Position numbers and translations under genes: made by a program. From assembly GCA_019454045.1 (NCBI GenBank), contig SKCR01006524.1, positions 124,001 to 188,000 on the forward strand: a DNA stretch of 64,000 nucleotides. Direction: 5' to 3'. Below the pieces are notes generated by a model, which had not been told where the DNA came from, did not search any database, and was given only the letters and a program-made list of their open reading frames with translations. Source of the DNA: Zanthoxylum bungeanum. Lineage: Eukaryota; Streptophyta; Magnoliopsida; Sapindales; Rutaceae. Shown one piece after another: positions 2,855-63,643 of the stretch (its first letter is position 1; each line of letters opens with the position of its first letter).

Positions 2855-3056
2855 TGTTAGGTGTTAGTTGTGTGTTGTGATGATGTTAGTTGTGTTGTGT
2901 TATTAGTAGTTATTAGTTGATAGTTGTATAGATGTATTTAATATAGTAGTTATGCATTTATTGTGGTAGTTGTGTTTAAAGGTTATAAAAAGGCCTCTCA
3001 TTGTAATTCAAAACTTAAGTAAATGTAAATATACATTTTCTTCTCTAATTCTCACA
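2855..3056 (+). repeat. 5' LTR of the Copia element
   Basis: 202 bp, TG...CA ended. A TATA-like stretch (TTATAAAAAGG) lies at about 2981-2991, near the expected U3/R boundary. The matching bases in the 3' copy have lost this TATA form. Confidence 0.93.
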
Positions 3057-3068
3057 TGGTATCAGAGC
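3057..3068 (+). other. Primer binding site, tRNA-iMet type
   Basis: TGGTATCAGAGC abuts the 5' LTR with no spacer. It is the usual plant Copia primer site, complementary to the 3' end of initiator methionine tRNA. Confidence 0.93.
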
Positions 3069-3108
3069 TTAGGTTCTTTCCAGAGGTGTAGAAATTCGGT
3101 TTTCGGGA

Positions 3109-4077
3109 ATGGAAAAGTCAGATGCTATGCAACCCATTCCTACCATTCTCATAGGTTCAAACTATCGTCTATGGGTTCAGGGAATGCGTAGTTTTCTCAA
3201 GGGTCGGAAACTATGGCGTTATGTTACTGGAGATGTCAAGCCCCCCACTCGGCTTACTGATGAAACTGAAGGACAGCTCGCTGATCGTCTCGAGGATTGG
3301 GATAGTAAGAATCACCAAATTCTGACATGGTTCCGGAATACTTCGGTTCCAGCTATTCATCATCAATTTGGGCGCTACGAAACTGCCAAAGAAGTTTGGG
3401 ATCTGCTTGCATTAAGGTACACCTCTTCTGATCTCTCTAGTCAGTATCAATTATGGGAAAAGTTGTATAATTTGAAACAAGAGAAAGGTCAGTCTATTAC
3501 TGATTTTCTTGCACAAATGGAGAATATTTGGGACCAACTTGCTTTGTCAGAACCATCAATGAGTTGCACCGTTGATGCAACTAATTATACGGCACACCGT
3601 GACCGTATGCGACTATTCAATTCTTATTCTTATTGCCCTTACTGATGATTTTGAATCTTGTCGAGCTTCATTGTTACATCAATCTCCTCTACCTACAATA
3701 GAAGCTGCTGTCTCTCGATTATTGTCTGATGAAACTCGTCTCGGCTTACTTAAGCCATCTCACGATGATGTGTGCTTGCCGCCGCGGATAAACATTTCTC
3801 AAAAGGTGAAGGTAAATTTTGTCGTACCTGCAACAAATCTGGTCATATTCTGATTGAATGTAGTCTTACTGAATGTCACAAATGCAAGAAAAGAGGCCAT
3901 ATTGCCGCTCACTGTCCCACTAAGGTGAGTTGTCGCTACTGCAAGCTGTCTGGCCATTCCATTGAGCAGTGCCCCACTCGTCCCCCAAGATCTAATCAAC
4001 CCTCCAAGATAGCAATTCCAATTGCTGCTGCTACCTCTCTGAGGTTACTGTCTCTCCAACATCCACTGGTAACTTAG
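3109..4077 (+). pseudogene. Copia gag (nucleocapsid) relic with three CCHC zinc knuckles
   Basis: The first open stretch (3109-3645, 178 codons) carries the Copia gag N-terminal part, including a motif reading TARYTSSDL-like near residues 100-110 and a run of the UBN2 type. A frameshift follows. In a different frame (3772-4077) there are three consecutive CX2CX4HX4C knuckles: one starting FCRTCNKSGH, then CHKCKKRGH, then CRYCKLSGH. Knuckles of this type bind retrotransposon RNA during packaging. The frame changes mean no intact Gag can be made from this copy. Confidence 0.88.
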
Positions 4078-4147
4078 AAGCACTCTTTAGACAAATACTC
4101 TCCACCCATCCCAGTACTTCTACTGCCTTATCTGTCAATTCAGGTAA

Positions 4148-7100
4148 TTCTCCTTGGTATTTTGACTCTGGTTGTTGCAATCATATGACTTCTCAATCCT
4201 TGTTATTTTCTTCCACCTCTCCTACCACAAATATTTCTCTCCAATCTTCACTGCAGATGGCTCACAAATGCTTGTAAGTCAGTCTGGCCACATATCAACA
4301 TCTACACTCACATTACCAAACACATTTCTTATTCCCAAACTTACATTCAACCTTATTTCTGTTGGTCAACTATGTGAACTTGGATTAGAATTGATATTCT
4401 CCACTAATGGTTGTCGTGTGCAGGATCCGCAGACGGGACAGATTCTTGGGACAGGCCGTGAATTGGACGTCTGTTTGAACTCACCTCTCAGCATCTCTCC
4501 TTCAAATCGTTTTTCCCAATTATGCGATGTATCTACTCCATCTTCTCTTCACTTGTGGCATATGCGTCTTGGTCATGCCTCGATAAATAACTTCGTCATT
4601 TAGTTTCTAATAGTTCACTAGGTTCTGTTAAAGACCAGCCTTTCCATTGTGTCTCTTGTCAACTTGGAAAACAAACCAGCTTTGTCATTTCAACATAATA
4701 AACATAATCTGTTGCTCCATTTGATTTGGTCCACTCTGATGTATGGGGACCTTCACCTACAGCCACTATGGGAGGATCTAAATATTTTGTCTTGTTTATT
4801 GATGATTATTCTCGATTTACATGGATATTTCTTATGAAACAACGTTCTGAACTACCTCAAATTTATATTGACTTTGCAAACATGATCAAAACACAATTTT
4901 CCAAACTATAAAAATTTTGAGGACCAACAATGCCAAGGAATATCTTGACTCTCTCAAAATTCAACAATTTTTAAAAAGCCCAAGGAACCATTTCACAATG
5001 ATCATGCCCCATATACCTCTCAACAAAAGGACGAGCCGAAAGAAAACATCGTCATATTTTAGATTCACTCGATCCATGCTCATTTCATCATCTTGTCCTG
5101 AACGCTTTTGGGGTGAAGCTGCCCTTACGGCTGTTATGTTATTAATCGTATTCCTTCTTCAGTCACCAAACACAATTTGTCTCCTTATGATGCCTTTATG
5201 GTGTTTCCCCTCCTTATGATCTTCTCAAGGTTTTTGGGAGTGTTTGTTTTGTTCTTCTTCATCTCACAGAGCATCACAAGTTAGAATCCCGTGCCAGACT
5301 TTGTTGTTTCTTAGGATATGGTATTCAACACAAAGGTTATCGTTGTTGGGATCCCGTGTCAAAGAAACTTCGCATCTCTCGTCATGTTATTTTCTGGGAA
5401 CACGTTATGTTCTCTTCTATTTCTAAGTTCACAGTGTCACTTTCAGATCCTCCTCCACTTTTCACTAATCCATCTATTGAGTTGTTTCCATCTGATGCAA
5501 GTACTCATGGTGAACATACAGACGTCCAACCTCCATCCACCCCCACCGCCTGTTCTTGATGATGCCCCTCCTGCAGATACTGCACCAGAGACCATTGGTG
5601 ACTCATCTCCACCTTTCCTACCCGAGTAAGAAATCCTCCCCCTTATCTTCGAGATTATCATTGTTTCTCTGCTCTTGTTTCTTTGCATGAACCTCAGTCC
5701 TATAGGGAGGCTTCTTCTAATCCTCATTGGCAGCAAGCTATGCAAGATGAATTACAGCATTGACAAAGACAGATACTTGGGACTTGGTTGATCTTCCTCC
5801 CGGCAAAAATACAGTGGGATGCAAATGGGTTTACAAAATCAAACACATTCAGATGGATCTATTGAGCGTTATAAAGCACGACTTGTTGCTAAAGGATTCG
5901 CTCAAGAGTATGAGATTGATTATGATGAGACTTTTGCTCATGTTGCTGCCCTTACCTCAGTTCGCAGTCTGCTTGTTATTGCTGCTGCTCGGCAATGGAG
6001 TCTGTTTCAGATGGATGTCAAGAATGCCTTCCTCAATGGTGATCTCACTGAAGAAGTTTATATGACGCCTCCTCCAAGTCTTGATCATCCACTAAATACA
6101 GTATGTCGCCTGCGACGTGCCTTATATGGTTTGAAGCAAGCTCATCGTGCATGGTTTGCCAAATTCAGTACCGTTGTCATACAAATGGATTCACCTTCAG
6201 TCCACATGATTCAGCCTTATTTCTTCGAAAATCCAAAAAGGGTATTGTGATATTACTTCTTATGTTGATGATATGATTATTACTGGAGATGATATTTCAG
6301 GCATAGCAGATCTCAAGCAGGCTCTTAGTCAACAATTTGAAATGAAAAAGATTTTGGTCCTTTGAGTTATTTTTGGCCTTGAGGTTATTTGTTCTGATGA
6401 TGGTTATCATCTCTCGCAAGCCAAGTATGCCTCCGATCTTCTTTCTCGAGCTGGCCTTACAGATAGCAAGACAGTTCCAACTCCAATTGAGTATAATACT
6501 AGTCTTACACCTATAGATGAAGATAGCACTCCCCTTGATGATCCTACTCTCTACAGACATTGGTTGGAAGCCTCATTTATCTTACAGTCACTCGACCAGA
6601 CATTTCTTATGCAGTTCACATTGTCAGCCAATTAATGACCGCTCCCCGTTCCACTCATTATGCTGCAGTACTCGCATTCTTCGTTATGTTAAAGGAACTC
6701 TCTTTACAAGTCTCCATTTTTCTGCTACTTCATCATTGGTTCTTCGAGCCTATTCTGATTCTGACTGGGCAGGAGACCCTACTGATCGTCGATCAACTAC
6801 AGGTTACTGTATTTTTCTTGGTGATTCACTTATTTTTTGGCGTAGCAAGAAACAGACATTGGTTGCCCGCTCGAGTACTGAGGCTGAATATAGAGCTGTT
6901 GCTGCTACTACAGCTGAACTTCTACGGTTACGTTGGCTTCTAGAAGATATGGGAGTCCCTCAACCATCATCTCCCACTCTTTACTGCGACAACAAAAGTG
7001 CTATTGCAATAGCACATAATGATGTTTTTCATGAGCGCACCAAACATATTGAGATCGATTGTCATTTCATTCGCCAACACGTTGCTTCTGGCACTATTTC

Positions 7101-8659: not shown

Positions 8660-11511
8660 TCAAAATATATGTGTCTTAGGAATGTGAGATATCCTAGGCC
8701 ACTCCTCTCCCCTACCCTTCTCATAACGTTCTTGCAGAATAGAACAATTCTCAATCTTCAGTTCCTGCAGTGTTGTTTTTCGAAGTAGGTAATCTGGCAG
8801 TGCCTTTAATATGGGGCAATGACGAACTGTCAATGAAGAAAGGCAGGGCATGATTTCTTCATTTCTAGTAATCCTGTACTCCCACTCTTCCAATTCATTC
8901 ATACTCCAAAAGTGGAGTGATTTCAATTTAGGAAAGCTAATAACATACGAAGATGAAGAAGCAGAAGTTGAGCCATGATTGCTTTCTATTCCCAAAAATT
9001 CATCACACACCCTCTTCACACTATCGAATCCCCATATATTGAGTTCTTCAAGGGATGGCAATTTTCCCAAAGGAGGTAAATGCTCACAATTTTTGCAGCT
9101 GTTGAGACTTAAAGACCTTAGATTGGTTAATGACATCATCCAGTTCCAACTAGGGAAACTGTTGCCTCTGTACCAAACTATCTCCAATCTCTTTAAATTT
9201 GGAGATAGTTGCAAGGCTTCAAGTAGTTCTTCATCTTCCTTGTTCTTCCTCCTCCCTTCCAAGTCCCTACTAGCAAACTTAAGACTCAAATCAAAGAGGT
9301 TTTTCTTTTTCACAAGTTCAGATCTCTTAGCCTCACCTACATTTGACACATTACCCAGCCCCTCTATACAACATTCTCGAAGAAGGTTAAGGGTTTCTAA
9401 ACATTCAACCTTACATCCTCGGCCACCATTAACACCTCCACCACCCACAACCAACTTTTTTAATGTTCGAAGACTAGTTACTCTCGCAATCCCTGTTGGC
9501 ATGCAACTTAATGAATGAGTGTAACCATTGAGTAAATGCCTCAGGTTTATTAACTTTCCAATACCTTGAGGCAATTCTTTAAGATTAGAACACAATGTGA
9601 TATCTAGGATTTGTAAATTATTTACCTCACATAATGTCTCAGGCAGTTGCTCCATATTTTGCTGAGATAAGTTAAGATATCTCAAATGTATCATTTTTCC
9701 AACCTCCCTTGGAATCTCCTTTAAGTAGAAGAAACCTCCATTTATGTCAAATGTCCTTAAACATGCGAATTCAGAAAATAAATTTGCTACCACCTCAGTA
9801 TAAGGTGAAGGTGGTGCAACAATTACATCTTCAATTATGAGGCTACGCAATCTTTTGGCCTTAGAAATGGAGACAGGAAATGAAGCTCTGTTATACAACT
9901 TTAACATCGAATGACGAACATTCTCGCCAAAAGATTTTGTGAATGATTCCTCACTACCATTAATTTCCATCGTAAAACATTCATTTTTACATAGAAATTG
10001 GGCAAGGTCATGTACCATATCATGCATCTTGCAACTTACAATATCATGATTATATTTGTCAAACTCCTGAAAGAAAGACCGAGATGCTAAGATATTAAAA
10101 TATTCTTGACCAACTATCTCCATCTCTTCATCTTGCTCTACACTAAGGTAACCTTGAGCCATCCACAATTTAATCAATCTATCTTTATAAATTTTGTAAT
10201 CTTTTGGAAATACAGCGCAGTATGAGAAACATCGTTTTACCATAGAAGGCAAATCGATATAACTCAACATCATAGCAGGCAAAAGACCTTTCTCCAACTC
10301 TTTTAGCTTCCATAATTTACTATCTAAGATTCTTTGCCATTCTTCTTCAGTTTGTTTAGACTGCAGGAGGCTCCCAATCGCCTTTGCTGCAAGAGGTAAG
10401 CCTTTACACTTGCCTGCAATCTTTCGCCCAATATGCTCTAATTTTTCACAATTCTCATTAGACCGATCAAAAAATGCTAATCGCTTAAGCAATGACCAAC
10501 ATTCTCCTTCTGCCAAATGCTTGATGTGTATATTATCAGTTGATCCCATCATGCAAGCAACTGTCTCATTACGGGTCGTAATCAAAATCTTACTTCCATG
10601 TAGACCATTTTTCAGACATTGGCAGAATGGTTCCCATTTATTGTAATCTTCATTCCACACATCATCTAGGATAAGAAGAAATCTCTTATTCACAATAGAT
10701 TTGTTAATATGTTCCATAAGAGATTGAAATTCAACTAAATTAGAAGCATAGCCTTCTAGAGCTTCAATGATCGCCTTGGCAATCTTAAACTCATCAAAAG
10801 GGTCTCGGACCCACATAGTTTTGTCAAAGTTTCTTTTCACCCGATCATTGTTGTAGGCAAGTTGAGCAAGAGTTGTTTTTCCAATGCCTCCCATACCAAC
10901 AAGTGAGATGATGCGGAAGCCCTTTTGTTCTCCACTACTCAGACACAACAACTTACTTATGAGTGTGTTCTTATCATCATATCTCAGACTCATCAATTAA
11001 GGAGATACTTGGAACTCTCTCGGATTTCTCAACACTTTTAATCACATTCACATTAAAGTTAAACATGTCTTTTGCTTTGGCAAATATCATCAAGATTTTC
11101 ATTGATCTGTTTTATCTTGTAAGCAATGTCACTACGCAAACTGACTTGTTTGAAACCAAAGCAAGGTGAGGTGATGAAGGACAAAGGGCATACCTTCTTC
11201 CGAGGAAAAACATCAGCAGTATCATCACCTCCCTCGATTTGCAATTTGAGCCTTGCAGTGATCCACTCATCCAACACATCTTCCATGTCATAGGAAGCTT
11301 GTTTGAGCTGATCCAGCCAGAGTCTCACAGTTTCCTCATTCACTTGTCTTTGCTCTGCATCAACTAGTACTGCTTGAAGGGCTTGGAGATTCTTGATGAG
11401 CTTTCTCATTTCTTTATCAGTACCCGTTACAAGCCTCACCTCTTCTTGTATTTCTCGAGCCATCAACGTGGTCAGCTGCTGCACGAGACTGGAAACAATT
11501 GCGTCCGCCAT
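8660..11511 (-). pseudogene. CC-NBS-LRR (RGA-type) disease-resistance gene, frameshifted
   Basis: The family comprises intracellular immune receptors. The coiled-coil part starts at the MADAIV methionine (11511) and stays open to a stop at 11059. It has the Rx-type N-terminal features LWLDQLKQASYDMEDVLDEW. The NB-ARC and LRR part is open from 10996 to 8660 (778 codons). Its motifs are P-loop GMGGIGKTT, kinase-2 LLILDDVW, RNBS-B GSKILITTRN, GLPLAAKAIG, RNBS-D CFSYCAVFPKDY and MHDMVHDLAQF, followed by degenerate leucine-rich repeats to the end. The two parts are out of frame. One extra base at about 11082-11084 and a deletion of about 11 bp at about 10983 break the linker, where related genes encode a GRDDDK-like stretch. 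RNBS-A is also about two residues short (MWVRDPFDEF). A truncated NB-LRR starting at 10996 remains possible. Confidence 0.88.
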
Positions 11512-12146
11512 AGTCTGATGATTTTGTCGTAAATGCAGCAAAATGAGGAGAAATTGGGTTATTAGATAGCGCTTGTGACTTTGGAAAAGCTGACCATCCT
11601 TCCAAATCTTCCCAATTTTCCAAAGAAAATTAAAGCACATGGACCCACATAATAACATGATTAATTAACAGAACCAATAAAATAACCTCTCATGCAAATA
11701 TTTGTGGATGGATGTAGAAACAGATATAATTTATGCCTTCATGCCCATTATAAACCGCGCCTCATGAAGAACATTCTTCAACATTTTTTCCTTCAATCTC
11801 CACCAGCAATGGCTGATGATTCAGCAAAGAGTTAGTTGAATTTAGATATATATTCAATAAAAATGATTAATTTATCAATGTACGATATTATAAAATATGA
11901 AGGGAATAGATATATGTCAATTCGTTTATCGCACTACGTTGACGCATCGAGGATCGACCTGCCCGGACAGAGTGCGGTGGGTCGAGAGGGCAGCGCCCCC
12001 GAAAGGAAAACGAAATTCAAAAACAAAATTAATCGAAATAACTGATTTTGTGTGTTCTGGTGCAAAAAATGTATTTTGATTTCCATTGTCGCAACAATGG
12101 ATATTCATTGGCGTGACAATGAGACCTTAAAACATAAAGAGCATTT
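11512..12146. other. Upstream region of the NBS-LRR gene and left flank of a solo LTR
   Basis: No gene is seen. A minus-strand TATA-like sequence (TTTATAATG, about 11746-11754) could belong to the NBS-LRR promoter. A GC-richer patch at about 11940-12005 is unexplained. At 12083-12100 there is an 18-bp near-palindrome, CCATTGTCGCAACAATGG, with a related copy at about 12107-12120. More copies lie beyond the solo LTR, so the LTR landed inside a palindrome-rich repeat. Confidence 0.45.
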
Positions 12147-16694: not shown

Positions 16695-22589
<5,895 letters not shown>

Positions 22590-39295: not shown

Positions 39296-39460
39296 GGGTT
39301 ACCATTTTTGGGCTTTTGTTTTGATGTTGGGTTTGAAGTGAAAGACAGTTTTGCCCTTGGCCCGTACATGTTTTTCTCTACTCTCTAAGTCGAAGAGTCT
39401 TTGACTTGTAGAGTACTTTATCGAGTGTATCGTTTGGGATCTGATTTATAGTATGTTGGG
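39296..39460 (-). repeat. Tat 3' LTR, proximal end, and junction to tandem repeats
   Basis: After the GGGTT duplication the Tat LTR resumes and probably ends at CCCGTACA (39368). The following pyrimidine-rich TTTTTCTCTACTCTCT is the complement of a polypurine tract. The remaining stretch leads into the tandem repeats. Confidence 0.55.
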
Positions 39461-40620
39461 GTCTTCAATGTCTTCTGGACCAGATGAATGCCAGGTTTTC
39501 AACTTGAGTCTACATGAGCCATGGGGAATGCTTAATGTCGACTTAACCAGATTCAGGTAAGGATAATCCCCATATTACGAGTCAAAGTACCAGAGGAGTC
39601 TTCAATGTCGTCTGGACCAGATGAAGACCAGGTCTTCAACTTGAATCTACATGAGCCATGGGGAATGTTCCAAGTCGACTGAATCAGATTAAAGTCAGGA
39701 TAATCCCCATACTATGGGTCAAATGACCAGGGGAGTCTTCAATGTCATCTGGATTTGATGAAAGCCAGGTCTTCAATTTGACTCTACATGAGCCATTAGG
39801 AATATTCTCAGTCAACTAAACTTGATGAAGGTCATGATAATCCCCATACTACAAGTCAAATGACCAGTGGAGTCTTTAATGTCGTCTGGACTTGATGAAA
39901 ACCAGGTCTTCAACTTGACTCTACATGAGGCATGGGGAATATTCCCAGTCGATTGAACCAGATGAATGTCGGGATAATCTCCATACTATGGGTCAAATGA
40001 CCTGGGGAGTCTTCAATGTCTTCTGAACCAGATGAATGTCAGGTCTTCAACTTGACTCTACATGAGCCATGAGGAATGTTCCAAGTCGACTGAACTAGAT
40101 TAAGGTCAGGATAATCCCCATACTACGGGTCAAATGACCATATGAGTCTTCAATGTCGTCTGGACTTGATGAAAGCATGTCTTCAACGTGACTCTACATG
40201 AGTCATGAGGAATGTTCTCAGTCGACTGAACTTGATGAAGGTCAGGATAATCCCCATACTATGGGTCAAATGACCAGGGGAGTCTTCAATATCGTCTGGA
40301 CTAGATGAAAGCCAGGTCTTCAATTTGACTCTACATGAGCCATGGGGAATGTTCCCAGTCGACTGAACCAGATGAAGGTCAAGATAATCCCCATACTATG
40401 GGTCAAAGGACCAGGGGAGTCTTCAATGTCGTATGGACCAGATGAAAGCCAGGTCTTCAACTTTACTCTACATGAGCCATGAGGAATATTCACAATCGAC
40501 TGAACCAGATGAAGGTCGGGATAATCCCCATATTACGGGTCAAAGGACCATAGGAGTCTTCAATGTCGTATGGACCAGATGAAGTCTAGGACTTCAACTT
40601 GACTTTACATGAGCCATGAG
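39461..40620. repeat. 137-bp tandem repeat array in the Tat 3' region
   Basis: The start word GTCTTCAATGTC and its variants recur at 39461, 39598, 39735, 39872, 40009, 40145, 40282, 40419 and 40556, so the period is 136-137 bp. Units share CTCTACATGAGCCATG and GTCGACTGAACCAGATGAAG. Non-coding. Confidence 0.95.
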
Positions 40621-41090
40621 ATCCTCAACAAGTCCCAAGCTACAGATGTGTAGTGTAGAATGGGATGTACATCAAGCCCCAAGCTACACACGTGTGTCCG
40701 GAATCCACAACAAGTCCCAAGCTACACATTGAGATGCCAATTAGGTCATACTTAATTAGTATCAAGTCAATGACTGTGATCTACTTCAAGCCCCAAACTA
40801 CACACTCGTGGTGTCGAATTGGATATACATCATTCCCAAGCTATACACGATAGATGTCAAATGGAATATACATAATTACCCAAGCTAAACTCGCGAGGTG
40901 TCGAATGAGATATACATCATTCCCCGAGCTATACACGCGTGGGATCCACAACAAGTCCCAAGCTACATATGTGTAGTGTCGAATGAGATCCACATCATGC
41001 CCTAAGCAACACTTATGGAGATGTCCATTGGGGCATAGGCTTCATTTTGAATCTTCATTCGTGAACATCGACTGCGATGTCCTAACACCA
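40621..41090. repeat. Degenerate repeats of about 60 bp
   Basis: The phrase CAAGTCCCAAGCTACACA and variants recurs about seven times with changing spacing near 60 bp. Flanked by the 137-bp and 81-bp arrays. Confidence 0.75.
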
Positions 41091-42080
41091 ATTCTTCATA
41101 TATGTAGTGTCGAGTGGGATGTCCATGTCAAGTCTTCATTCATGCATGTCGACTGGAATGCCTTCACACCAAGTCTACATATAATTTCGTATCGAGTGGC
41201 ACATGCTTGTCAAGTCTTCATTCATGCATGTTGACTGGAATGCCTTCACACCAAGTCCACATACATGTATTGTCGAGTGGGACATCCATGTCAAATCTTC
41301 ATTCATGTACGTCGACTGGAATACCTTCACACCAAGTCTACATATAATGTAGTGTCGAGTGGGACATCCATGTTAAATCTTCATTCATGCATGTTGACTG
41401 GAATGCCTTCACACCAAGTCTTCATACATGTAGTGTCGAGTGGGATGTCCATGTCAAGTCTTCATTCATGTATATCGACTGTAATGCCTTCACACCAGGT
41501 CCCAATACATGTAGTGTCGAATGAGAGATTAATGCCAAATATTCATTCTTGTATTGTAGATTGAGACCTCTCTGCCAAGACTTCATTCGTATATGTCGAC
41601 TGGGATGTTCATGTCAAGCCTTCCATGTTGTATTATCGAGTGAGATATCCATACTAAGTCTTCTTATGATATCGTGTCGAGTGGAACCTCTTCATGTGCA
41701 AAGTCTTCATACGATGTCATATCGAGTGGCACCTTCATATTTTCCAAGTACTCATATAATGTCATGTCAAATCTTCATTCATGCATGTCGACTAGAATGC
41801 CTTCACACCAAGTCCCCATACATGTATTGTCGAGTGGGACATCCATGTCAAATCTTCATTCATGTATGTCTACTGGAATGCCTTCACACCAAGTCTTCAT
41901 ACATGTAGTGTCGAGTGAGACATCCATGTCAAATCTTCATTCATACATGTTGACTGTAATGCCTTCACACCAAGTCTTCATACATGTAGTGTCGAGTGTG
42001 ATGTCTATGTCAAGTCTTCATTCATGCATGTCGACTGGAATGCCTTCACACCAGGTCCCAATACATGTAGTGTCGAATGG
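41091..42080. repeat. 81-82-bp tandem repeat array
   Basis: TCGAG occurs in the same context at 41110, 41192, 41273, 41355, 41436 and 41517, giving a period of 81-82 bp, and similar units continue at about 41760-42080. Because 81 is divisible by three, some frames stay open and give repetitive peptides. These are not genes. Confidence 0.92.
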
Positions 42081-44345
42081 GACATTAATGCCAAATATTC
42101 ATTCTTGTATTGTCGATTGGGACCTCCCTGCCAAGACTTCATTCGTGTATGTAGACTGGGATGTTCATGTCAAACCTTCCTTATTGTATTGTCGAGTAGG
42201 ATATCCATATTAAGTCTTCTTATGATATTGTGTCGAGTGGAACCTCCTCATATGCAAAGTTTTCATACGATGTCATGTCGAGTGGCACCTCTATATTTTC
42301 CAAGTACTCATATGATGTCATGTCGAGTGACACCTCCATATTTACCAAGTACTCATATGATGTCGTGTCGAGTGACACCTCTAAATCCGTCACGTCTCGG
42401 CATTTGTCGATCACGAAATGTCAACCAATCATGACTTCCCTCAGTCGACAATAATGAATATACCTCTTATTCGATTGGACGAACAATGGGCCTTTAAACC
42501 TTTCTAGGCCATTCCTCAAATATCAATGCAACCCTAGTGGGACTTACGAGGTGTTTTAAGCAGGAATTCGAGGCGCAAAATGGAGTGTATAAGAAAGGTT
42601 TTTGAGACTCCTTTTGTTCCATTCACAAATTTTATCTTGATTCAACAAGTTAGGAGAAGTCTCAAGCCTTCAAGGTATTCTTCAAAACCCTTCTTGTGTT
42701 CTTGTGTTCTTCAATATCTTTAATTATTCATAACGTAGATTCAAGCTATTCTTAGTTAGAATAGGTTGTTTGATCTTTTGAATTGTGGTGAAATAATTGG
42801 AATTATTTTTTAGGAGCTTGATCTCTAGGGAGTAGTGATTGTAGGAAGTTTAGTTTTTGTATGCTTGTTGTTTGGAGAATGTCGAGTGAAGAGTCTCTGG
42901 ATAGCCTAGGTGCTCAAATTGACAGATATGTTGAATCATCGTCAAGTGAGTCGAGTGATCTTGAAACATATAAGGATTGGTCGCATGAAGATCTTATTGA
43001 GGTTGGACTTATAACGATTGTTGAGCCACCTCTTGGGGTTCCTATTCATACATGTATTGTCGAGTGGTACATCCATGTCAAATCTTCATTCATGCATGTC
43101 GACTAGAATGCCTTCACACCAAGTCCCCATACATGTATTGTCGAGTGGGACATCCATGTCAAATCTTCATTCATGTACGTCTACTGGAATGCCTTCACAC
43201 CAAGTCTTCATACATGTAGTGTCGAGTGGGACATCCATGTCAAATCTTCATTCATGCATGTAGACTGTAATGCCTTCACACCAAGTCTTCATACATGTAG
43301 TGTCGAGTGTGATGTCTATGTCAAGTCTTCATTCATGCATGTCGACTGGAATGCCTTCACACCAGGTCCCAATACATGTAGTGTCGAATGGGACATTAAT
43401 GCCAAATATTCATTCTTGTATTGTTGATTGGGACCTCCCTGCCAAGACTTCATTCGTGTATGTAGACTGGGATGTTCATGTCAAACCTTCCTTATTGTAT
43501 TGTCGAGTAGGATATCCATACTAAGTCTTCTTATGATATTGTGTCGAGTGGAACCTCCTCATATGCAAAGTTTTCATACGATGTCATGTCGAGTGGCACC
43601 TCTATATTTGCCAAGTACTCATATGATGTCATGTCGAGTGACACCTCCACATTTACCAAGTACTCATATGATGTCGTGTCGAGTGACACCTCTAAATCTG
43701 TCACGTCTCGGCATTTGTCGATCATGAAATGTCAACCAATCATGACTTCCCTCAGTCGACAATAATGAATATACCTCTTATTCGATTGGACATACAATGG
43801 GCCTTTGAACCTTTCTAGGCTCTTCCTCAGATATCAATGCAACCCTAGTGGGAATTACGAGGTGTTTTAGGCGAGAATTCGAGGCGCCAAAATAGAGTGT
43901 ATAAGGATGGGTTTTGAGACTCCTTTTGTTCCATTCACAAATTTTATCTTGATTCCACAAGTTGGGAGAAGTCTCAAGCCTTCAAGGTATTATTCAAAAC
44001 TCTTCTTGTATTCTTCAATATCTTTAATTATTTATAACGTAGATTCAAGTTGTTCTTAGTTAGAATATGTTGTTTTATCTTTTGAATTGTGGTGAAATAA
44101 TTGGAATTGTGTTTGAGGAGTTTGATCTTTAGGGAGTAGTGATTGTAGGAAGTTTAGTGTTTGTATGCTTGTTGTTTGGAGAATGTCGAGTGAAGAGTCT
44201 CTGGATAGCCTAGGTGCTTAAATTGACAGATATGTTGAATCATCATCAAGTGAGTCGAGTGATCTAGAAACATATAAGGATTGGTCTCATGAAGATCTTA
44301 TTGAGGTTGGACTTATAACGATTGTTGAGCCACCTCTTGGGGTTT
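41764..44345. repeat. Direct duplication of a 1.3-kb segment
   Basis: Copy 1 is about 41764-43041 and copy 2 about 43075-44345, offset 1304-1311 bp and nearly identical. Each copy contains 81-bp repeats, the 50-bp repeats, a TATA-like promoter stretch and the first 50 or so codons of the extra ORF. Copy 1 ends by running back into the repeats, so it holds only a stub of the ORF (ATG at 42879). Copy 2 leads into the full ORF. Confidence 0.92.
42230..42400. repeat. Short repeats of about 50 bp
   Basis: Three to four copies of a unit with GATGTC(A/G)TGTCGAGTG and CAAGTACTCATAT. The same block recurs at about 43540-43700 as part of the larger duplication. Confidence 0.85.
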
Positions 44346-54554: not shown

Positions 54555-54829
54555 TTTCCCACTCATTTAACTTAATATTTTGTATAGTTTCTTGAGTTTT
54601 ATGAACGTTTTGATGTGTTTTATTGTTATTTTGCAGATAAATAAAGTTTGGACAGCACTGGAGGCAATTTGGGGCAAAACCGGACAAAAATGCGTCAACC
54701 GGGTTATTTTCGTCTTATTCGCGTCGCGACGCAGGAGCACTGCGCGCCGCGACGCCCAGCGTGTGCCGGTTCTGCTAAAATGCGCCATGGTCAACGGGTC
54801 AACAATTAGAAAAGTTTGACTTTGCTAAA

Positions 54830-55260
54830 ATGCGCCGTGCCACGTGTCACCATCACATCCGATCTGCTAACGTGCGCCGTGCCACGTGTCAACATCATAT
54901 GCTGCCGACACTCAGACTTGACACGTGTCGCCTCGTCATCAGCCACATCATCGGTCAACAAGTCAACCTTGCCACGTGTCGTGCCACATCATCAGCCACG
55001 TCAGCAAGTCAACCGAGTCAACTTGCCACGTCAGCCTCAGCCAATCACACACAGCATGACACGTGTCGCCACGTGTCGCAATCCCATTGTGCCGACAGTT
55101 GTACAGTCAGCCGCCACGCCACGTCATCGCCACGTCATCGCCACGTCATCAATGACGTCATCACAATAATTGAGAATTAGCCGCCTTGACACGTGTCACG
55201 TGAATAGTCAGCCGCCTTGCTACGTGTCGCCGTCTCATTGTGCCACGTCGACATTTGAGC
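54830..55260 (+). promoter_or_regulatory. Dense ACGT-core (G-box/ABRE-like) cluster in the Athila C U3
   Basis: About 16 ACGT cores in 430 bp, mostly (C/A)CACGTGTC and GCCACGTCA, plus one TGACGTCA. ACGT cores are bound by plant bZIP and some bHLH factors, including ABA-response factors. The cluster sits about 70-500 bp upstream of the TATA box. The 3' LTR has the same cluster at about 61885-62280. Confidence 0.85.
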
Positions 55261-55327
55261 GTCGCGACGCGCAACTCCTTAGCGTCGCGACGCGCTCACA
55301 GTTCCCAAACAGTGAATTTTGTGTTGC

Positions 55328-55335
55328 TATAAATA
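55328..55335 (+). promoter_or_regulatory. TATA box of the Athila C 5' LTR
   Basis: TATAAATA in the context GCTATAAATAGGCCGCG, followed by a CT-rich stretch (CTCTCTCTAGAGAGAG-like) typical of the transcription start region. The same box lies at 62362-62369 in the 3' LTR. Confidence 0.85.
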
Positions 55336-56605
55336 GGCCGCGAATTTTCATATTTCATATACCTTTTCTCTCTCTGATTTCTCTCTCTAGAGAGAGTTTC
55401 TCTCTCTAGAATTTTTATTTTTTACTTTTTAATTTTTAGTTTTGTAATTTATTTTAATTACTTTTTATAATAATAGTAATTTAATTTTTTTTTTACTTTT
55501 TACAGTTTTTACTATTCACCATGTTGAAATAATTTCCTCAGCTAGGGTGAAAGGTAATTCTTCTACTATTGCTATTTAGATTAATCTCCCTTAAAAATAA
55601 TATATTAACTAATTAAAATATTGACTTAATAAGGAATACCGCTATATTGGTCGGTTGGTAATTAATTTTAATGGCTGGTTGGACTTAACCTGACTAATCA
55701 CGGATACCGCCAGACTGGTCGGTTGGTAAATTCAACACAAGTTTATATATTATTTTATGGAGATATCTAAATTAGTAGTAGTAAAAGTAATTCCTTTTAC
55801 CTTAGCATTTTTTTTATTGTAATTTACTTTTCAGCATTTTTACTTTATGTTTTTTATGTTTTTACTAGTCCTAATTATGTGTTAGTTAATTAGAGGTTGT
55901 GACGACTTTTAATATCACCGTTTATAAGGGATTATTTTATAGTTGGGTAATTTAAAAGTTTATTTATTAAGTCTTAAGCTTAATGCTTCTTGTTGTCTGA
56001 TCACCAATAAGATTGAAATGGTAAATCTAAAATGAACTAGACATAGGGATTTTAGGTTTCAGCCTTAGACTTAATAGCTCACGATCTTCCTTGAGGATAG
56101 ATAACCCTTTAATAGATTTCCTTACAGGATAGGAATATACCTGTCGGGCGGGGGTAGCCATAATTGGAACTTAGACTTAATGAATCCAGGTAATGTGGTT
56201 GACATAGGAATATGGTTCAATTGGGTTATACTGGGTATTTGTAGTTGACCATCGACAGAGGCTTTTACATAATTTAGTGTTCCAGGTTAATGAATCAATA
56301 TATTACCAACTTTAAGATAACCACTTCATCTTTTAAATGATATTAAAAGAATTCACAACCTTAGATTTTTTGTATTTTGTTATTTTCCTTAGTATTTTCT
56401 TTTATCTTTTTATTATTTATTTATAACCACTTTCAACAATCAAACAATCATTCCCTTCTCCCTATAATTAGATATTTGTAATTAAATAGATTCAATAATT
56501 AATAACAACAGTAGGAATTAAGTCCTCGTGGGATCGATATTTTTATACTACTTGAACGATACGTGCGCTTGCGTTATACGTGTGTGTTTACGCCGGTCAA
56601 GTTTT

Positions 56606-56623
56606 TGGCGCCGTTGCCGGGGA
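56606..56623 (+). other. Athila C primer binding site, tRNA-Asp
   Basis: TGGCGCCGTTGCCGGGGA is complementary to the 3' end of plant tRNA-Asp, the primer used by Athila elements. It lies six bases after the LTR. Confidence 0.92.
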
Positions 56624-56730: not shown

Positions 56731-57588
56731 ATGGAACATTACTGGGAGATTGAAAGATCACAAGCTTTACAAGAAGATACACCCCACATCTGGGAGCAAC
56801 AGTCCGGTTTTCTGAGGCCTGTTGTTGAGCCCAACAATTATCACTGGATACCAGAACCAAGCAACCCTACATTTGCTCAACAGAATTCAATGTGGATATG
56901 TGACATATGTAATGGTGACCACCCAAGCGATTATTGCGAATACAACTACCATCCAGGGTGGCAGAACTATCAAGATCCTTCATGGTACGAAGAACCATCA
57001 CATTTCACAGAACCACATTTTCCATCTTATCCACCATCTTCCTTCGATCCTTATCAAGAACCAGAACCATCCGAGGAAGATCAATTGATTCACATGTTCA
57101 AAGAACAAGCAGCTCAATTTGATGCACAAATTCAGAGTCAAACAGAATCCATACAGAGAATGACAGATCAAATCAGACAAATAACAGAAAACCAGAACTA
57201 TATACCTCAAGAACCATTCTCAGATGACACTGATGAAGCCTTCGAGTACCAATCATTTTATAATGACACGTCAACAGAGGAGGAGGCTGAGCAGTATCAA
57301 CAACCAGAGGTATCAGTTCAGGAACTTGAACCGACAAAGTCTCGATTTGATTTTTATTTTTCAGATTCTGACGATGATGAAGCTGATCCATTTATACCAA
57401 CTGCACCAATAATTGAGGATGGAATTCTGTGTCCTCAAAACGAAGATCTTGGAGATTCCATTTCACAAATGTTTGAAGAAAATCTTCCTGAACCATCCAA
57501 TCCAGTCATATCAGAGGATGAAGACCTAAAATCTAACATTCTTTTCATTCTCAGGTTGACAATTTTGAAACATGTATTTCACAGATGA
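56731..57588 (+). CDS. Athila C gag-like ORF (C-terminal gag remnant)
   Basis: An open frame of 285 codons that begins about 110 bp after the primer site, where gag should start. The product is acidic and rich in Glu, Asp, Gln and Pro. Near residues 56-68 it has CDICNGDHPSDYC, a CX2CX3HX4C variant of the retroviral zinc knuckle, similar to the compact knuckles of Athila Gag. The matrix/capsid-like retrotrans_gag domain is missing, so it is probably a remnant of the Gag C-terminal part. It may still bind RNA, or the frame may be kept only by youth. The frame ends close to a region where several frames open briefly (57585-57982). Confidence 0.6.
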   Translation: MEHYWEIERSQALQEDTPHIWEQQSGFLRPVVEPNNYHWIPEPSNPTFAQQNSMWICDICNGDHPSDYCEYNYHPGWQNYQDPSWYEEPSHFTEPHFPSYPPSSFDPYQEPEPSEEDQLIHMFKEQAAQFDAQIQSQTESIQRMTDQIRQITENQNYIPQEPFSDDTDEAFEYQSFYNDTSTEEEAEQYQQPEVSVQELEPTKSRFDFYFSDSDDDEADPFIPTAPIIEDGILCPQNEDLGDSISQMFEENLPEPSNPVISEDEDLKSNILFILRLTILKHVFHR

Positions 57589-58070
57589 CAGATGAAGAAC
57601 TAAATACAGAAATTTTAAAATACATCTGTGAAGAAAATGTGAGCAAGAAACAGAGCAAATGGAGGAGCAAATATCTGAACTTAATAAAAATCCAGAGCAT
57701 TCAGGAAAAACATCGCTGTTTTGGGGAGTACAAATCAAAGATATCACCCAGAAGTTTGACAGAATGGAACTTCCATTCCAAGTCAAGCACCATACGAGAC
57801 CTCCTGATTTTCTTTCTTTCTTTTCAGGAACCACTGGAGTAACAAAGATTAAAAAGGTGGAACGAGCACTGAATAAGACAAAATTATTTTTGCCACTTTA
57901 CCGTTGGAAGAGACCCTTCAAAAGCAATGCTCACGGGATTGTCCTTAATCGGACATCCAAAACGACACTGAAACCTCCTTAACAGATAAATTTCAGTCAC
58001 GTCTGGCTGAAGACGAAAAATTTAGCGCTAGCAGGGAGGCAACCCATGCAATTTGTTGTAATTTATTTTT
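57589..58070 (+). pseudogene. Athila C post-gag relic up to the GGGAGGCAACCCATG landmark
   Basis: Broken frames (for example 57659-57982), probably left from internal deletion of pol. The stretch RTSKTTLKPP followed by AGCGCTAGCAGGGAGGCAACCCATG matches the conserved Athila region that normally follows pol. Confidence 0.55.
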
Positions 58071-58287
58071 CATATTTTGTGTGAACTTTTTAATTTTTTG
58101 TGTTAGTTTTGCAGGAAAAATAAAAACGGAATTTTTCAGGACAAAAGAGGCCAGTACAAGCGGGATTTTCAAAATAAAAATTTGACAAAATCACAAAGAT
58201 ACAAAGTTGATCCAGGAGACGGCCGAGTAAAAAGACACTTCTTAAAGGCGTCCCTATGGAGTTATCTGTCACAAGACATGGTTTTGC

Positions 58288-58326
<39 letters not shown>

Positions 58327-59149
58327 GAGTCAAAACCCTAAAGGACCGAGTGTCGCGACGCTAGGAAAGTTTTGGCGTCGCGACGCTGACTCAAAAGACA
58401 GAACATAAACAGAGGCGCCGCAGATCTCATTTTCACTCCTTCTTCTTCCTCAAACACCACGAAACCAGAAACCTTCACCAAGCCTTCTCCAGCCAACACC
58501 GCCGAGATCCACCAGCCACGCCACTGCCAAAACCGACCAAAGCCGAGATACCCACACCGTGAATCACCAAGACAGTCACCAAACCCACGATCAAAACCTT
58601 CCATAATCAGATCTGATTTTTGTGGATAATTTGTGTGGTTAATTTTGAAATTGAATGTTACAGGTTTTGAAATTTTGGCAGTAAAAGGGGGATAATCGAA
58701 AAATTGAATGAGTTTGTGGTTGATTTTGTTGAAATTGGAGGATTGTGAATTGGAAGTTTAGCGGTGAATAACTGGCTGAATTCTGAGTTTAGAAATTGCC
58801 AGATCGATGGAATTTGGTAGAATTGGGGGCGAAGAAATTGAGTTTGATATTTGGTGTTTGTTTGTGGCATTTGATAGATTTAGGTTGTATTGGATAATCA
58901 AAAATTCAGGGGAGACTCTGTCGGATTTTTCTTAAAAATACCAAAGTTGGGATTTGATTGGTGATAATTTTTTAAGGTAAATTTTGGGGAAATTTTGAGA
59001 TTTTAGAAGTGATTCTGCCAAAATTTTTAATGAAAAATGGTCAAATAGCAATTGTGGTAAGAACCGTAATTGGACAAAACTCTTAATCGGTAATTTTTCC
59101 TGTAAAATTTCAGCTGACTAGGTATTATCTTCTAAACTTTTTGTGTATA
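58071..59149 (+). other. First cargo-slot-like segment of Athila C, decayed
   Basis: Bounded by a left motif (TGTGAACTTTTTAATTTT, about 58080) and a right motif (GTGGTAAGAACCGTAATTGG, about 59056) that recur around the LOG gene. It contains a 34-base poly-A run (58289-58322), two GTCGCGACG palindromes (about 58350 and 58376) and a C/A-rich stretch at about 58420-58610 that resembles a gene 5' end. No intact ORF is recognised. Confidence 0.45.
58289..58322 (+). repeat. Poly-A run, 34 bases
   Basis: Uninterrupted A tract inside Athila C, upstream of the LOG gene. Confidence 0.95.
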
Positions 59150-59577
59150 CATAGTGTGAACTTTTTAATTTTGTGTGTTATTTTTGTAGGGAAAAGCACA
59201 AACGGAGCATTTTAATACATAAGGAATTGTGTTTGACAATAAAAAAAGAAGAGAGCTAATTCATTTGTGATGGCTGAGTAAAGAATTAAGTCTTGAGACA
59301 CATCCTAATGAATTTTTACTATGCGAGTGGCGTATTGCATACACAATTCCGTTGCCTTAATTATTGCTTTGATTTGCTCTTCTTTTGTAATTATCTTTAT
59401 TTTCGTAGACAGGATCCAGACTTTTTGACCTTTCACGATTCATTTTGTTGTTTAGCTAACAATCGTCCTTTGAAAGATATTAGTGCTATTATTACTCACC
59501 CTTTTTCAGGTACTATAAATTCAGCCCGTCATTGCACTTTAGAAGGCATTCAGAATCAAGAAAGAAAACATAGAAAA

Positions 59578-60171
59578 ATGGAAGCCACTTCAAGAAGACG
59601 AGTTGAAAACATTTGTGTGTTTTGTGGTAGTACTGTTGGTACTAAACCACAATACATAGAAGCAGCACAGGAGTTGGGTCGAGTATTAGCCGCAAGGAAT
59701 ATGCACTTAATATATGGCGGAGGAAATCTCGGACTTATGGGGATCGTTTCAAAAGCCGTACAGGAAGGAGGCAGTCATGTTTTGGGAATCATACCAAAAC
59801 CCTTGGCAGAGGCAAATCTTATTGGATCATCAAACGGCGAGGAACTAATCGTGCCAGGTATGTCTGAACGACTGGTAGAAATGATTAACCGTGCTGATGC
59901 TTTTATCGCTTTGCCAGGTGGCTTGGGTACGTTGGAGGAAATTTTTATAGTGCTATCTTGGGCGAACCTGAATATACACCAGAAACCGCTTGGACTACTC
60001 AACGTTGATGGATTTTATGATTTTCTTTGTGTGTTTCTTGATGATGCTCGGAGAAATGGGTTCGTGTCGAAACCTATGAAAGAACTCCTCTTTACTGCCA
60101 GAACTGCTCCGGATCTAATTGACCAACTCGTAGCTTATGAACCACAAGTTGACCCTCTCCTTCAAAGATAA
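59578..60171 (+). CDS. LOG: LOG-family cytokinin riboside 5'-monophosphate phosphoribohydrolase, captured by Athila C
   Basis: Intact 197-residue ORF. LOG enzymes release active free-base cytokinin and ribose 5-phosphate from cytokinin nucleoside 5'-monophosphates, in the cytosol. The Rossmann-type fold signatures are ICVFCGS (12-18), YGGGNLGLMG (46-55), MSER (95-98) and the family motif PGGLGTLEE (113-121). Arg98 and Glu121 fit the conserved catalytic Arg and Glu. The usual RK after the MxxR position is RL here, so activity is not certain. The ORF has no introns, whereas known plant LOG genes are multi-exon, which suggests capture through RNA. It is slightly short at the C-terminus (typical 210-220). 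I chose the MEATSRR start because homology begins there. The frame is open upstream to 59293, but that part has no recognisable domain. Transcription would depend on the LTR or a captured promoter (TATAAA-like near 59513). Confidence 0.93.
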   Translation: MEATSRRRVENICVFCGSTVGTKPQYIEAAQELGRVLAARNMHLIYGGGNLGLMGIVSKAVQEGGSHVLGIIPKPLAEANLIGSSNGEELIVPGMSERLVEMINRADAFIALPGGLGTLEEIFIVLSWANLNIHQKPLGLLNVDGFYDFLCVFLDDARRNGFVSKPMKELLFTARTAPDLIDQLVAYEPQVDPLLQR

Positions 60172-60188
60172 AATGGTCCGAGGACGAT

Positions 60189-60275
60189 CGTGGTAAGAGG
60201 CGTCGAATTAATCTGGACCTTAACCTTTAATTTCCTTTAGATTTCAGCTAACCAGGTACAACCTTCTAACTCTCC
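60189..60275 (+). repeat. Right flank repeat of the LOG slot
   Basis: GTGGTAAGAGGCG...TTTCAGCTAACCAGGTAC... resembles 59056-59135 (GTGGTAAGAACCG...TTTCAGCTGACTAGGTAT...). It marks the right edge of the LOG insert and hints at a duplicated module. Confidence 0.6.
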
Positions 60276-60742
60276 TTTTACTGTTTAAGACATTGGGGAC
60301 AATGTCTCATTTAGGTTTGGGGGAGGGATTTAGTTGATTAGTACCTTGTTTTTAGTTTGTATGTTGTTTTTATTTTTAGTCCAAAATTTTTCGAAAAATA
60401 CAAAAAAATTGAAAAATTTTCAAAAATTACAAAAATATTTTGCATTTTTATTTTTATTTTGACTAAAAAGGTGAAATTGGTGAGAGGTAGCTGAGTAAGG
60501 AGTTTTCACTCCTGATACGTATCTCAAACCATTTATTTCAAAACAAGTTAATTTTTGTTTATTTCCTTTTGAATTATTAATTTGTGAATTCTCCATAAAT
60601 CTGACTAAAATGAATCTTCATATATTCAGTTGACAGGTATTATGAACTTACATGGAAACATACAGTCATGAGCTAAAATTGAAAAGTTTGTAATATTCCG
60701 TGCTATAGTTTAATTGGAAGAAGCATCTCTAAATAGTGATGG

Positions 60743-61569: not shown

Positions 61570-61579
61570 TTTGGGGGTG
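61568..61579 (+). other. Athila C polypurine tract
   Basis: GGTTTGGGGGTG directly before the TGATGAGTGG start of the 3' LTR. The exact border could be two bases earlier. Confidence 0.8.
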
Positions 61580-63643
61580 TGATGAGTGGTATTTATATCA
61601 CTATTTCCCACTCATTTAACTTAATATTTTGTATAGTTTCTTGAGTTTTATGAACGTTTTGATGTGTTTTATTGTTATTTTGCAGATAAATAAAGTTTGG
61701 ACAGCACTGGAGGCAATTTGGGGCAAAACCGGACAAAAATGCGTCAACCGGGTTATTTTCGTCTTATGCGCGTCGCGACGCAGGAGCACTGCGCGCCGCG
61801 ACGCCCAGCGTGTGCCGGTTCTGCTAAAATGCGCCATGGTCAACGGGTCAACAATTAGAAAAGTTTGACTTTGCTAAAATGCGTCGTGCCACGTGTCACC
61901 ATCACATCCGATCTGCTAACGTGCGCCGTGCCACGTGTCAACATCATATGCTGCCGACACTCAGACTTGACACGTGTCGCCTCGTCATCAGCCACATCAT
62001 CGGTCAACAAGTCAACCTTGCCACGTGTCGTGCCACATCATCAGCCACGTCAGCAAGTCAACCGAGTCAACTTGCCACGTCAGCCTCAGCCAATCACAGC
62101 ATGACACGTGTCGCCACGTGTCGCAATCCCATTGTGCCGACAGTTGTACAGTCAGCCGCCACGCCACGTCATCGCCACGTCATCAATGACGTCATCACAA
62201 TAATTGAGAATTAGCCGCCTTGACACGTGTCACGTGAATAGTCAGCCGCCTTGCTACGTGTCGCCGTCTCATTGTGCCACGTCGACATTTGAGCGTCGCG
62301 ACGCGCAACTCCTTAGCATCGCGACGCGCTCACAGTTCCCAAACAGTGAATTTCGTGTTGCTATAAATAGGCCGCGAATTTTCATATTTCATATACCTTT
62401 TCTCTCTCTTGATTTCTCTCTCTAGAGAGAGTTTCTCTCTCTAGAATTTTTATTTTTTTACTTTTTAATTTTTAGTTTTGTAATTTATTTTAATTACTTT
62501 TTATAATAATAGTAATTAATTTTTACTTTTTACTTTTTACAGTTTTTACTATTCACCATGTTGAAATAATTTCCTCAGCTAGGGTGAAAGGTAATTCTTC
62601 TACTATTGTTATTTAGATTAATCTCTCCCTTAAAAATAATATATTAACTAATTAAAATATTGACTTAATAAGGAATACCGCTATATTGGTCGGTTGGTAA
62701 TTTAATTTTAATGGCTGGTTGGACTTAACCTGACTAATCACGGATACCGCCAGACTGGTCGGTTGGTAAATTCAACACAAGTTTATATATTATTTTATGG
62801 GAGATATCTAAATTAGTAGTAGTAAAAGTAATTCCTTTTACCTTAGCATTTTATTTTATTGTAATTTACTTTTCAGCATTTTTACTTTATGTCTTTTATG
62901 TTTTTACTAGTCCTAATTATGTGTTAGTTAATTAGAGGTTGTGACGACTTTTAATATCACCGGTTTATAAGGGATTATTTTATAGTTGGGTAATTTAAAA
63001 GTTTATTTATTAAGTCTTAAGCTTAATGCTTCTTGTTGTCTGATCACCAATAAGATTGAAATGGTAAATCTAAAATGAACTAGACATAGGGATTTTAGGT
63101 TTCAGCCTTAGACTTAATAGCTCACGATCTTCCTTGAGGATAGATAACTCTTTATAGATTTCCTTACAGGATAGGAATATACCTGTCGGGCGGGGGTAGC
63201 CATAATTGGAACTTAGACTTAATGAATCCAGGTAATGTGGTTGACATAGGAATATGGTTCAATTGGGTTATACTGGGTATTTGTAGTTGACCATCGACAG
63301 AGGCTTTTACATAATTTAGTGTTCCAGATTAATGAATCAATATATTACCAACTTTAAGATAACCACTTCATCTTTTAAATGATATTAAAAGAATTCACAA
63401 CCTTAGATTTTTGTGTATTTTGTTATTTTCCTTAGTATTTTCTTTTATCTTTTTATTATTTATTTATAACCACTTTCAACCAATCAAACAATCATTCCCT
63501 TCTCCCTATAATTAGATATTTGTAATTAAATAGATTCAATAATTAATAACAACAGTAGGAATTAAGTCCTCGTGGGATCGATATTTTTATACTACTTGAA
63601 CGATACGTGCGCTTGCGTTATACGTGTGTGTTTACGCCGGTCA
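61580..63643 (+). repeat. Athila C 3' LTR
   Basis: About 2064 bp, TGATGAGTGG...CGCCGGTCA. Almost identical to 54555-56599. Includes the ACGT cluster, the TATA box at 62362-62369 and GTCGCGACG palindromes, one of which is mutated (GCATCGCGACGC at about 62318). Confidence 0.92.

Follow-up and report, generated by a model that had tools for sequence, protein, structure and literature searches.

Plant LOG genes normally have introns, and the occurrence of an uninterrupted LOG-family ORF between the LTRs of a retrotransposon of Zanthoxylum bungeanum raises the question of whether the element spreads a hormone-activation gene, as a sequence-only reading of the locus had proposed, or carries a LOG protein that serves other ends. 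The locus lies in a stretch of 64,000 nt (contig SKCR01006524.1, positions 124,001 to 188,000) that was analysed as a whole and is referred to below as the window.

The LOG-family ORF and its carrier element

The following features were recognised in the window copy of the element.

54555..56599, + strand: 5' LTR, lacking the first 24 nt present in the 3' LTR (LTR comparison)
56606..56623, + strand: primer binding site-like sequence, TGGCGCCGTTGCCGGGGA (motif)
56731..57588, + strand: gag-position ORF of 285 aa containing a CX2CX3HX4C knuckle (ORF reading)
58034..58046, + strand: GGGAGGCAACCCA motif
58079..58135, + strand: block X, T-rich tract with GCAG, candidate 3' splice site
59051..59135, + strand: block Y, homologous to Y'
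59154..59213, + strand: block X', duplicate of X lying before LOG
59578..60171, + strand: LOG-family ORF, 197 aa (TIGR00730, PF03641, motif reading)
60162..60230, + strand: tail-coding stretch (SKIKWSEDDRGKRRRINLDLNL), here not in the LOG frame
60187..60269, + strand: block Y', homologous to Y and tail-coding in its initial portion
61570..61577, + strand: polypurine-tract-like TTTGGGGG, immediately before the 3' LTR
61580..63643, + strand: 3' LTR

Two near-identical LTRs, a primer binding site and polypurine-tract-like runs (at 60316 and 61570) identify the structure as an LTR retrotransposon. The LTRs are 99.46% alike, with 11 substitutions over 2029 aligned sites (K2P 0.0054) and 13 gap events, a divergence that corresponds to an insertion age of about 0.2-0.4 My under two assumed substitution rates; the window copy is a recently inserted member. 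We take TGGCGCCGTTGCCGGGGA to be a primer binding site of the tRNA-Asp type and GGGAGGCAACCCA to be the Athila post-pol landmark, and by these two labels the element is Athila-like. Its gag-position ORF is broken, since two sister loci (L032 and L084) have 416-419 open codons at this place. The internal region has 42 ORF pieces of at least 45 codons; scanning 20 of them revealed no pol domain, no RT and no Pfam match above cut-off. ATHILA ORF1 (PF03078) was likewise absent among the Pfam matches of these 20 pieces, a domain found in just 16% of the Athila elements surveyed according to the part of PMC6317226 available to us. The sequence to the left of the 5' LTR was recognised by eye as a Copia-type element in decay, lying on the minus strand.

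The internal region contains two tandem cassettes, X...Y followed by X'...LOG...Y'. The X/X' alignment scored 72 against a null maximum of 36, and the Y/Y' alignment 43 against 22 (100 shuffles each); no recognised ORF occupies the slot between X and Y in the window copy. X and X' each contain a T-rich tract followed by GCAG or GTAG and are candidate 3' splice sites through which the accessory ORF might have a message of its own, the model for this being the spliced env-type messages of barley Bagy2 described in the accessible portion of PMC7264820.

The ORF at 59578-60171 matches TIGR00730 with 166.7 bits (cut-off 96.35) and PF03641 with 122.9 bits, and contains both YGGGNLGLMG and PGGLGTLEE in a frame without interruption. 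The presence of the PGGxGTxxE motif and of the catalytic Arg and Glu assigns its product to the type I LOG phosphoribohydrolases. AtLOG3 is the closest solved structure (203 bits) and also the best Foldseek match of a predicted model (pLDDT 85.8), by which the protein is predicted to adopt the LOG fold. Within the internal region, the LOG frame stays open for longest, with 293 codons from stop to stop, and this exceeds what chance provides, since 1000 letter shuffles of the region gave at most 216 codons; in simulations of neutral drift, 99 of 2000 runs were still stop-free at 70% identity, which alone is weak evidence. The 197-codon LOG-family ORF claimed in the sequence-only reading is thus confirmed, as is, with the LTRs and the plant grouping given below, an intronless plant-type LOG gene within an Athila-like LTR element.

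Scans of the window for tRNAs and Rfam families gave no match. Elsewhere in it, dense tandem repeats with units of 81, 137 and 45 nt occupy 39355-44302, with decayed gypsy-like pol pieces nearby at about 46.7-49.3 kb, and two minus-strand ORFs resemble an NB-LRR resistance protein (8660-11658) and a chloroplast FtsH-like protein (21213-22589), the last three being recognised by eye.

Copies, selection, substrate pocket and C-terminal tail

A search of the source assembly (3.96 Gb, 51,709 contigs) with the LOG protein gave 67,468 first-look candidates, the best 150 of which, the only ones scored, were all full-length, stop-free and 96-100% identical, in agreement with the proposed spread of LOG-carrying elements. 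Twenty of these 150 constitute the protein-chosen set. Since these are best-scoring copies, a second set was picked by 3' flanking DNA with the LOG disregarded (2,216 candidates, 40 scored, 30 fetched). Twenty-nine of the 30 fetched loci cover the LOG, one of them being the window itself and L063 being the exception, which leaves 28 flank-chosen copies. In LOG DNA, identity to the window is just 94-96% for copies that match it at 99-100% in the 3' flank (60172-60420), so that the window element may be mosaic, with parts from two subfamilies.

By Nei-Gojobori counts over 190 codons with a codon bootstrap, LOG dN/dS was 0.095 between the window and the 28 flank-chosen copies (0.035-0.196), 0.076 within these 28 (0.034-0.148, bootstrap on the first 150 of 378 pairs) and, for the 20 protein-chosen copies among themselves, 0.062 (0.032-0.111). 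Differences per site among flank-chosen copies were 0.0072, 0.0056 and 0.0571 at codon positions 1, 2 and 3, and the first 190 codons of all 28 were free of substitution stops. The dN/dS check named in the sequence-only reading accordingly gives the signature of purifying selection, and the codon comparisons show the element LOG protein to be preserved by it; the low ratios could instead stem from gene conversion or from a small number of active source copies. Neighbouring non-coding stretches are uneven yardsticks, with a K of 0.135 among flank-chosen copies for the stretch preceding LOG and of 0.043 for 60430-60740 after it, which is close to the flank used for choosing copies. Twenty of the 28 flank-chosen copies together have 44 indels of 1-2 nt within the initial 575 nt of the ORF, where the other eight are indel-free; these indels represent either decay or assembly error.

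Residues of the active site have been assigned in CgLOG, where the part of PMC4979012 available to us gives Arg99 and Glu122 for catalysis, Met96, Lys100 and Glu121 for adenine binding, and Met96, His97, Lys100, Glu125 and Trp129 for a proposed prenyl site; alanine at AMP-binding or catalytic residues, Ser19 excepted, nearly abolished activity. In a type-II LOG, according to the accessible text of PMC5379747, Lys156Ala at the position matching the Lys lost all AMP activity, which was not lost with alanine at three prenyl-site residues. At these sites the window protein has Met95, Ser96, Arg98, Leu99, Glu120, Glu121, Ile124 and Trp128. Catalytic R98 and E121 are kept, and the pocket Lys is replaced by Leu99, the Glu by Ile124 and the His by Ser96, each change needing at least two base changes, so that three of the five residues of the type Ia prenyl-site set (Met, His, Lys, Glu, Trp) differ.

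The window protein was compared with 20 LOGs, namely five solved structures, two genome contigs, two of eight viral contigs and 11 plasmid loci (fetched from 40 listed plasmid matches, 173 records in all). Sixteen columns are invariant among these comparators, and two of them, the pocket positions Lys99 and Glu124, are changed in the window protein; position 96 is His in 17 of the 20. When each comparator was left out in turn, three others broke two or three otherwise invariant columns, one at the pocket Trp, and none of the 20 broke Lys99 or Glu124; the enrichment of pocket positions among conserved columns is borderline (Fisher p 0.042). Six distant IMG/VR loci (L005-L010) stand outside this column count. 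Five of them (L005-L009) have Gln at the Lys position and the fragment L010 has Thr at the Glu position, and the two positions are therefore not universal beyond the closer comparator set.

Across 48 element copies, Ser96, Leu99, Ile124 and Asn80 are fixed. Leu99 is encoded by TTG, CTG, TTA and CTA, as expected if the changed residue itself is kept. Thr118, Glu120 and Glu121 also occur in all 48, Arg98 in 45 with a gap in the other three, and Trp128 is Gly in one copy.

These kept residues, together with the affinity to plant LOGs described below, speak for element proteins that are still cytokinin-activating LOGs and that would raise active cytokinin where the element is transcribed. From what could be consulted of PMC8234997 and PMC4979012, prenyl-site residues differ between LOG types, and the M. 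tuberculosis LOG is cytokinin-specific despite the different prenyl site of its relative M. marinum, whose LOG differs at three of the five proposed residues, which also favours this explanation. Against it stand the Lys to Leu change at the adenine position in 48 of 48 copies, where the matching Lys156Ala lost AMP hydrolysis (PMC5379747, accessible text), the accompanying Glu to Ile and His to Ser changes, and the missing tail of the window copy. Judging from the pocket residues, cytokinin activation by the element LOG is doubtful and we consider this explanation unlikely; with the adenine/prenyl pocket altered in every one of the 48 copies, the notion of an element spreading a hormone-activation gene is not upheld.

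In many copies, a 22-residue tail ending in GKRRRINLDLNL is added after LOG. Reading continues in frame to SKI(K/N)WSEDDRGKRRRINLDLNL, with small variants, in 13 of the 20 protein-chosen copies, and the tail is also in frame in all seven that were read of the eight indel-free flank-chosen copies. The seven remaining protein-chosen copies leave the tail frame earlier, L049 and L050 ending in the short form of the window. In the window copy, a frameshift within the last few LOG codons, relative to tailed copies, precedes the tail, which is the reason why its description as intact was wrong. Taken on its own (upstream indels affect most of the 28 flank-chosen copies), the tail is gap-free in 26 of these 28, all 26 protein-identical (differences by codon position 0, 0 and 0.047), and in 16 of the 20 protein-chosen copies (0.047, 0.022 and 0.083; one with an internal stop). 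All 42 gap-free tails end in NLDLNL and thus carry the LxLxL form, as do three of five older copies described below (L087, L088 and L090). We take KRRR in the tail to be a basic patch resembling those of nuclear localisation signals, and LDLNL at its end is presumably the LxLxL form of the EAR repression motif, which is short enough for six of the 2026 stop-ended frames in the window to end so.

Sister elements and ancestry of the LOG lineage

The comparison extended to seven sister loci, each of which covers 8-10 kb on the upstream side of LOG. Four have a window-type gag-position ORF, with a double cassette in L032, L084 and L086 and a single one in L033. The other three (L030, L031 and L085) have a different gag, with Retrotrans_gag above cut-off in L030 and L085, the two whose gag ORFs were scanned, as well as aspartic-protease matches below cut-off and an integrase C-terminus recognised by eye. 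Six of these loci, all except L032, were scanned for a YxDD motif, and no RT was found. The presence of two gag types beside LOG indicates that LOG is a component of at least two element families in this genome, and since no autonomous element was seen, we infer an unseen partner supplying pol. Of the earlier proposal that the element lost pol, the lack of pol stands for the 20 of 42 ORF pieces scanned.

Two observations concern the architecture of these sisters. In L032, two tandem LTR copies (2511-6656) lie upstream of one LOG element. An ORF is found just upstream of LOG in L030 (9206-9751), L031 (450-920, minus strand) and L085 (7336-7740), matching Carla_C4 over 31-37 residues with 28.0, 26.1 and 28.8 bits, respectively (cut-off 20.9), and Viral_NABP above cut-off in two of the three; a crude dN/dS between the three copies is 0.29-0.41.

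Searching the genome with the pattern PGGYGT[LM]EE gave five matches (L087-L091), all of which are older, broken relatives of the element LOG, with pieces 62-89% identical and one 31-residue piece at 45%. They read PGGYGT like plant LOGs where the window has PGGLGT, an observation of existence only as they were selected by that pattern. All five have Leu at position 99 and Ser at position 96; position 124 is Ile in L087 and L091 and Thr in L088, L089 and L090, and the catalytic Arg is lost in L089. The altered pocket therefore predates the present copies, position 124 being less fixed. A tree of 21 LOGs joins the window protein to AtLOG3 and AtLOG8 with support of 99/97 (100/96 for the two Arabidopsis proteins) and gives it a long branch, at 0.99 changes per site; it is 50.5% identical to AtLOG3 and 44.4% to AtLOG8, which share 70.4%. 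This grouping, made with two plant LOGs in the tree, and the low identity point to plant ancestry and not to a recent copy of an ordinary LOG.

Recent capture of an ordinary LOG transcript was rejected on the 51% identity, the old diverged copies and the two carrier families. Capture by the window element itself, as had been proposed, is not supported, given the two gag-distinct families, the 51% and 44% identities and the older copies with Leu99. Possible sources other than an ordinary LOG include a divergent host LOG-like gene that already had the pocket and tail, was captured more recently and whose host relative is selected for its own sake. Such a gene could have been missed by a genome search that used the PGGYGT[LM]EE pattern; that search gave no intron-bearing gene, and hence no multi-exon parent, its five matches being the older broken element relatives, and the copies themselves show low dN/dS and are carried by two element families, so that we regard this source as improbable. 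Horizontal acquisition from bacteria is very improbable. PGGLGT and some other residues look bacterial, and the P. aeruginosa LOG is 48% identical to that of the window, but the tree places the latter with the two plant LOGs (99/97), and in the plasmid search all 173 records with a match fell below 60% identity, the top-ranked at 47.6%. The protein query (P0001) matched two bacterial loci at 38% in genome contigs and found no relatives in IMG/VR, where a search with an alignment gave eight distant loci. An assembly chimera or a chance ORF, for which the missing first 24 nt of the 5' LTR and the resulting lack of a target site duplication comparison might be invoked, can be dismissed given 150 scored copies on many contigs and LOG coverage in 29 of the 30 flank-fetched loci.

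Proposed role and comparison with known systems

With slightly better than even confidence, we favour an old plant-derived LOG lineage that became the 3' accessory gene of high-copy Athila-like elements and that would act through a nuclear, corepressor-recruiting mechanism. Related Athila-like LTR elements in which no RT was found carry this LOG lineage, and LTR-driven RNA, perhaps spliced, would yield a putatively dimeric LOG-domain protein. The basic patch may carry this protein into the nucleus, where the EAR-type end may recruit TOPLESS-type corepressors and alter host or element transcription to the benefit of the element. The substrate of the LOG domain may be another nucleotide, or the domain may simply bind one; in the window copy the frameshift removes the tail. 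Going by pocket and tail, the probable role of the protein is to serve the element and not just to make plant hormone, and a nuclear, corepressor-recruiting element protein is our preferred reading of these sequence features. A more tentative extension, which we see as possible though not likely, takes into account the ORF with a carlavirus-like, cysteine-rich nucleic-acid-binding motif that adjoins LOG in sister elements: the captured LOG would be a nuclear effector, a dimer with a new-ligand pocket and an EAR tail, and would form with the carlavirus-like ORF a virus-like module for anti-silencing or transcription tuning.

Compared with plant type-Ia LONELY GUY proteins (AtLOG3, 2A33; AtLOG8, 1YDH), the element LOG shares the (predicted) LOG fold, PGGxGTxxE and the catalytic Arg and Glu, and the window LOG aligns with AtLOG3 without gaps over 186 residues. 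Unlike these proteins, to which it is 51% and 44% identical, it has the Lys to Leu, Glu to Ile and His to Ser pocket, is encoded by an intronless gene in an LTR element and bears, in other copies, the GKRRRINLDLNL tail.

In Athila elements with a sense env-like ORF at the 3' end, this accessory ORF likewise lies after the pol position and ahead of the 3' LTR, as far as the available parts of PMC7264820 and PMC11728184 go. The element described here, which has a putative Athila type of primer binding site and post-pol motif, differs in the LOG that occupies the accessory slot, in that no RT was found, and in the two tandem X...Y cassettes present in the window and in three of the seven sisters. 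Another cellular-type enzyme encoded by an additional ORF of an LTR element is the AlkB m6A demethylase of an orchid Gypsy element, a different enzyme that was tested in vitro (PMC9289625, part available), whereas the window LOG is known from sequence alone. Most descriptions of accessory ORFs in plant LTR elements, in the literature that was accessible, assign them no known function. The element LOG offers a recognisable enzyme fold, strong purifying selection, a defined active-site change and a specific C-terminal motif, and a role for the element, in host transcription or in hormone steering is directly testable through the protein and its tail motif.

The sequence-only reading had also considered that the ORF might be a normal component of such elements, and this is the situation found within the genome, in view of the copies and the two carrier families. 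The consulted part of PMC9289625 reports a YgdH domain in LTR-element consensuses of Citrus sinensis and C. clementina and, with a looser filter, of Populus trichocarpa, in agreement with Steinbauerova 2011 as cited there; these Ty3/gypsy elements resemble ours in that a plant Gypsy element carries a LOG-type domain, a likeness at the level of the domain. Besides this paper, we recognised no literature describing a LOG in a retrotransposon, mostly as judged from the listing of publications, and EAR terms are absent from its available text, the sole source examined for EAR motifs in retrotransposons. A LOG domain in plant Gypsy elements is thus already known, and relative to that part of PMC9289625, which contains no pocket, tail or selection analysis, the selection on the LOG protein, its altered pocket and its tail are new.
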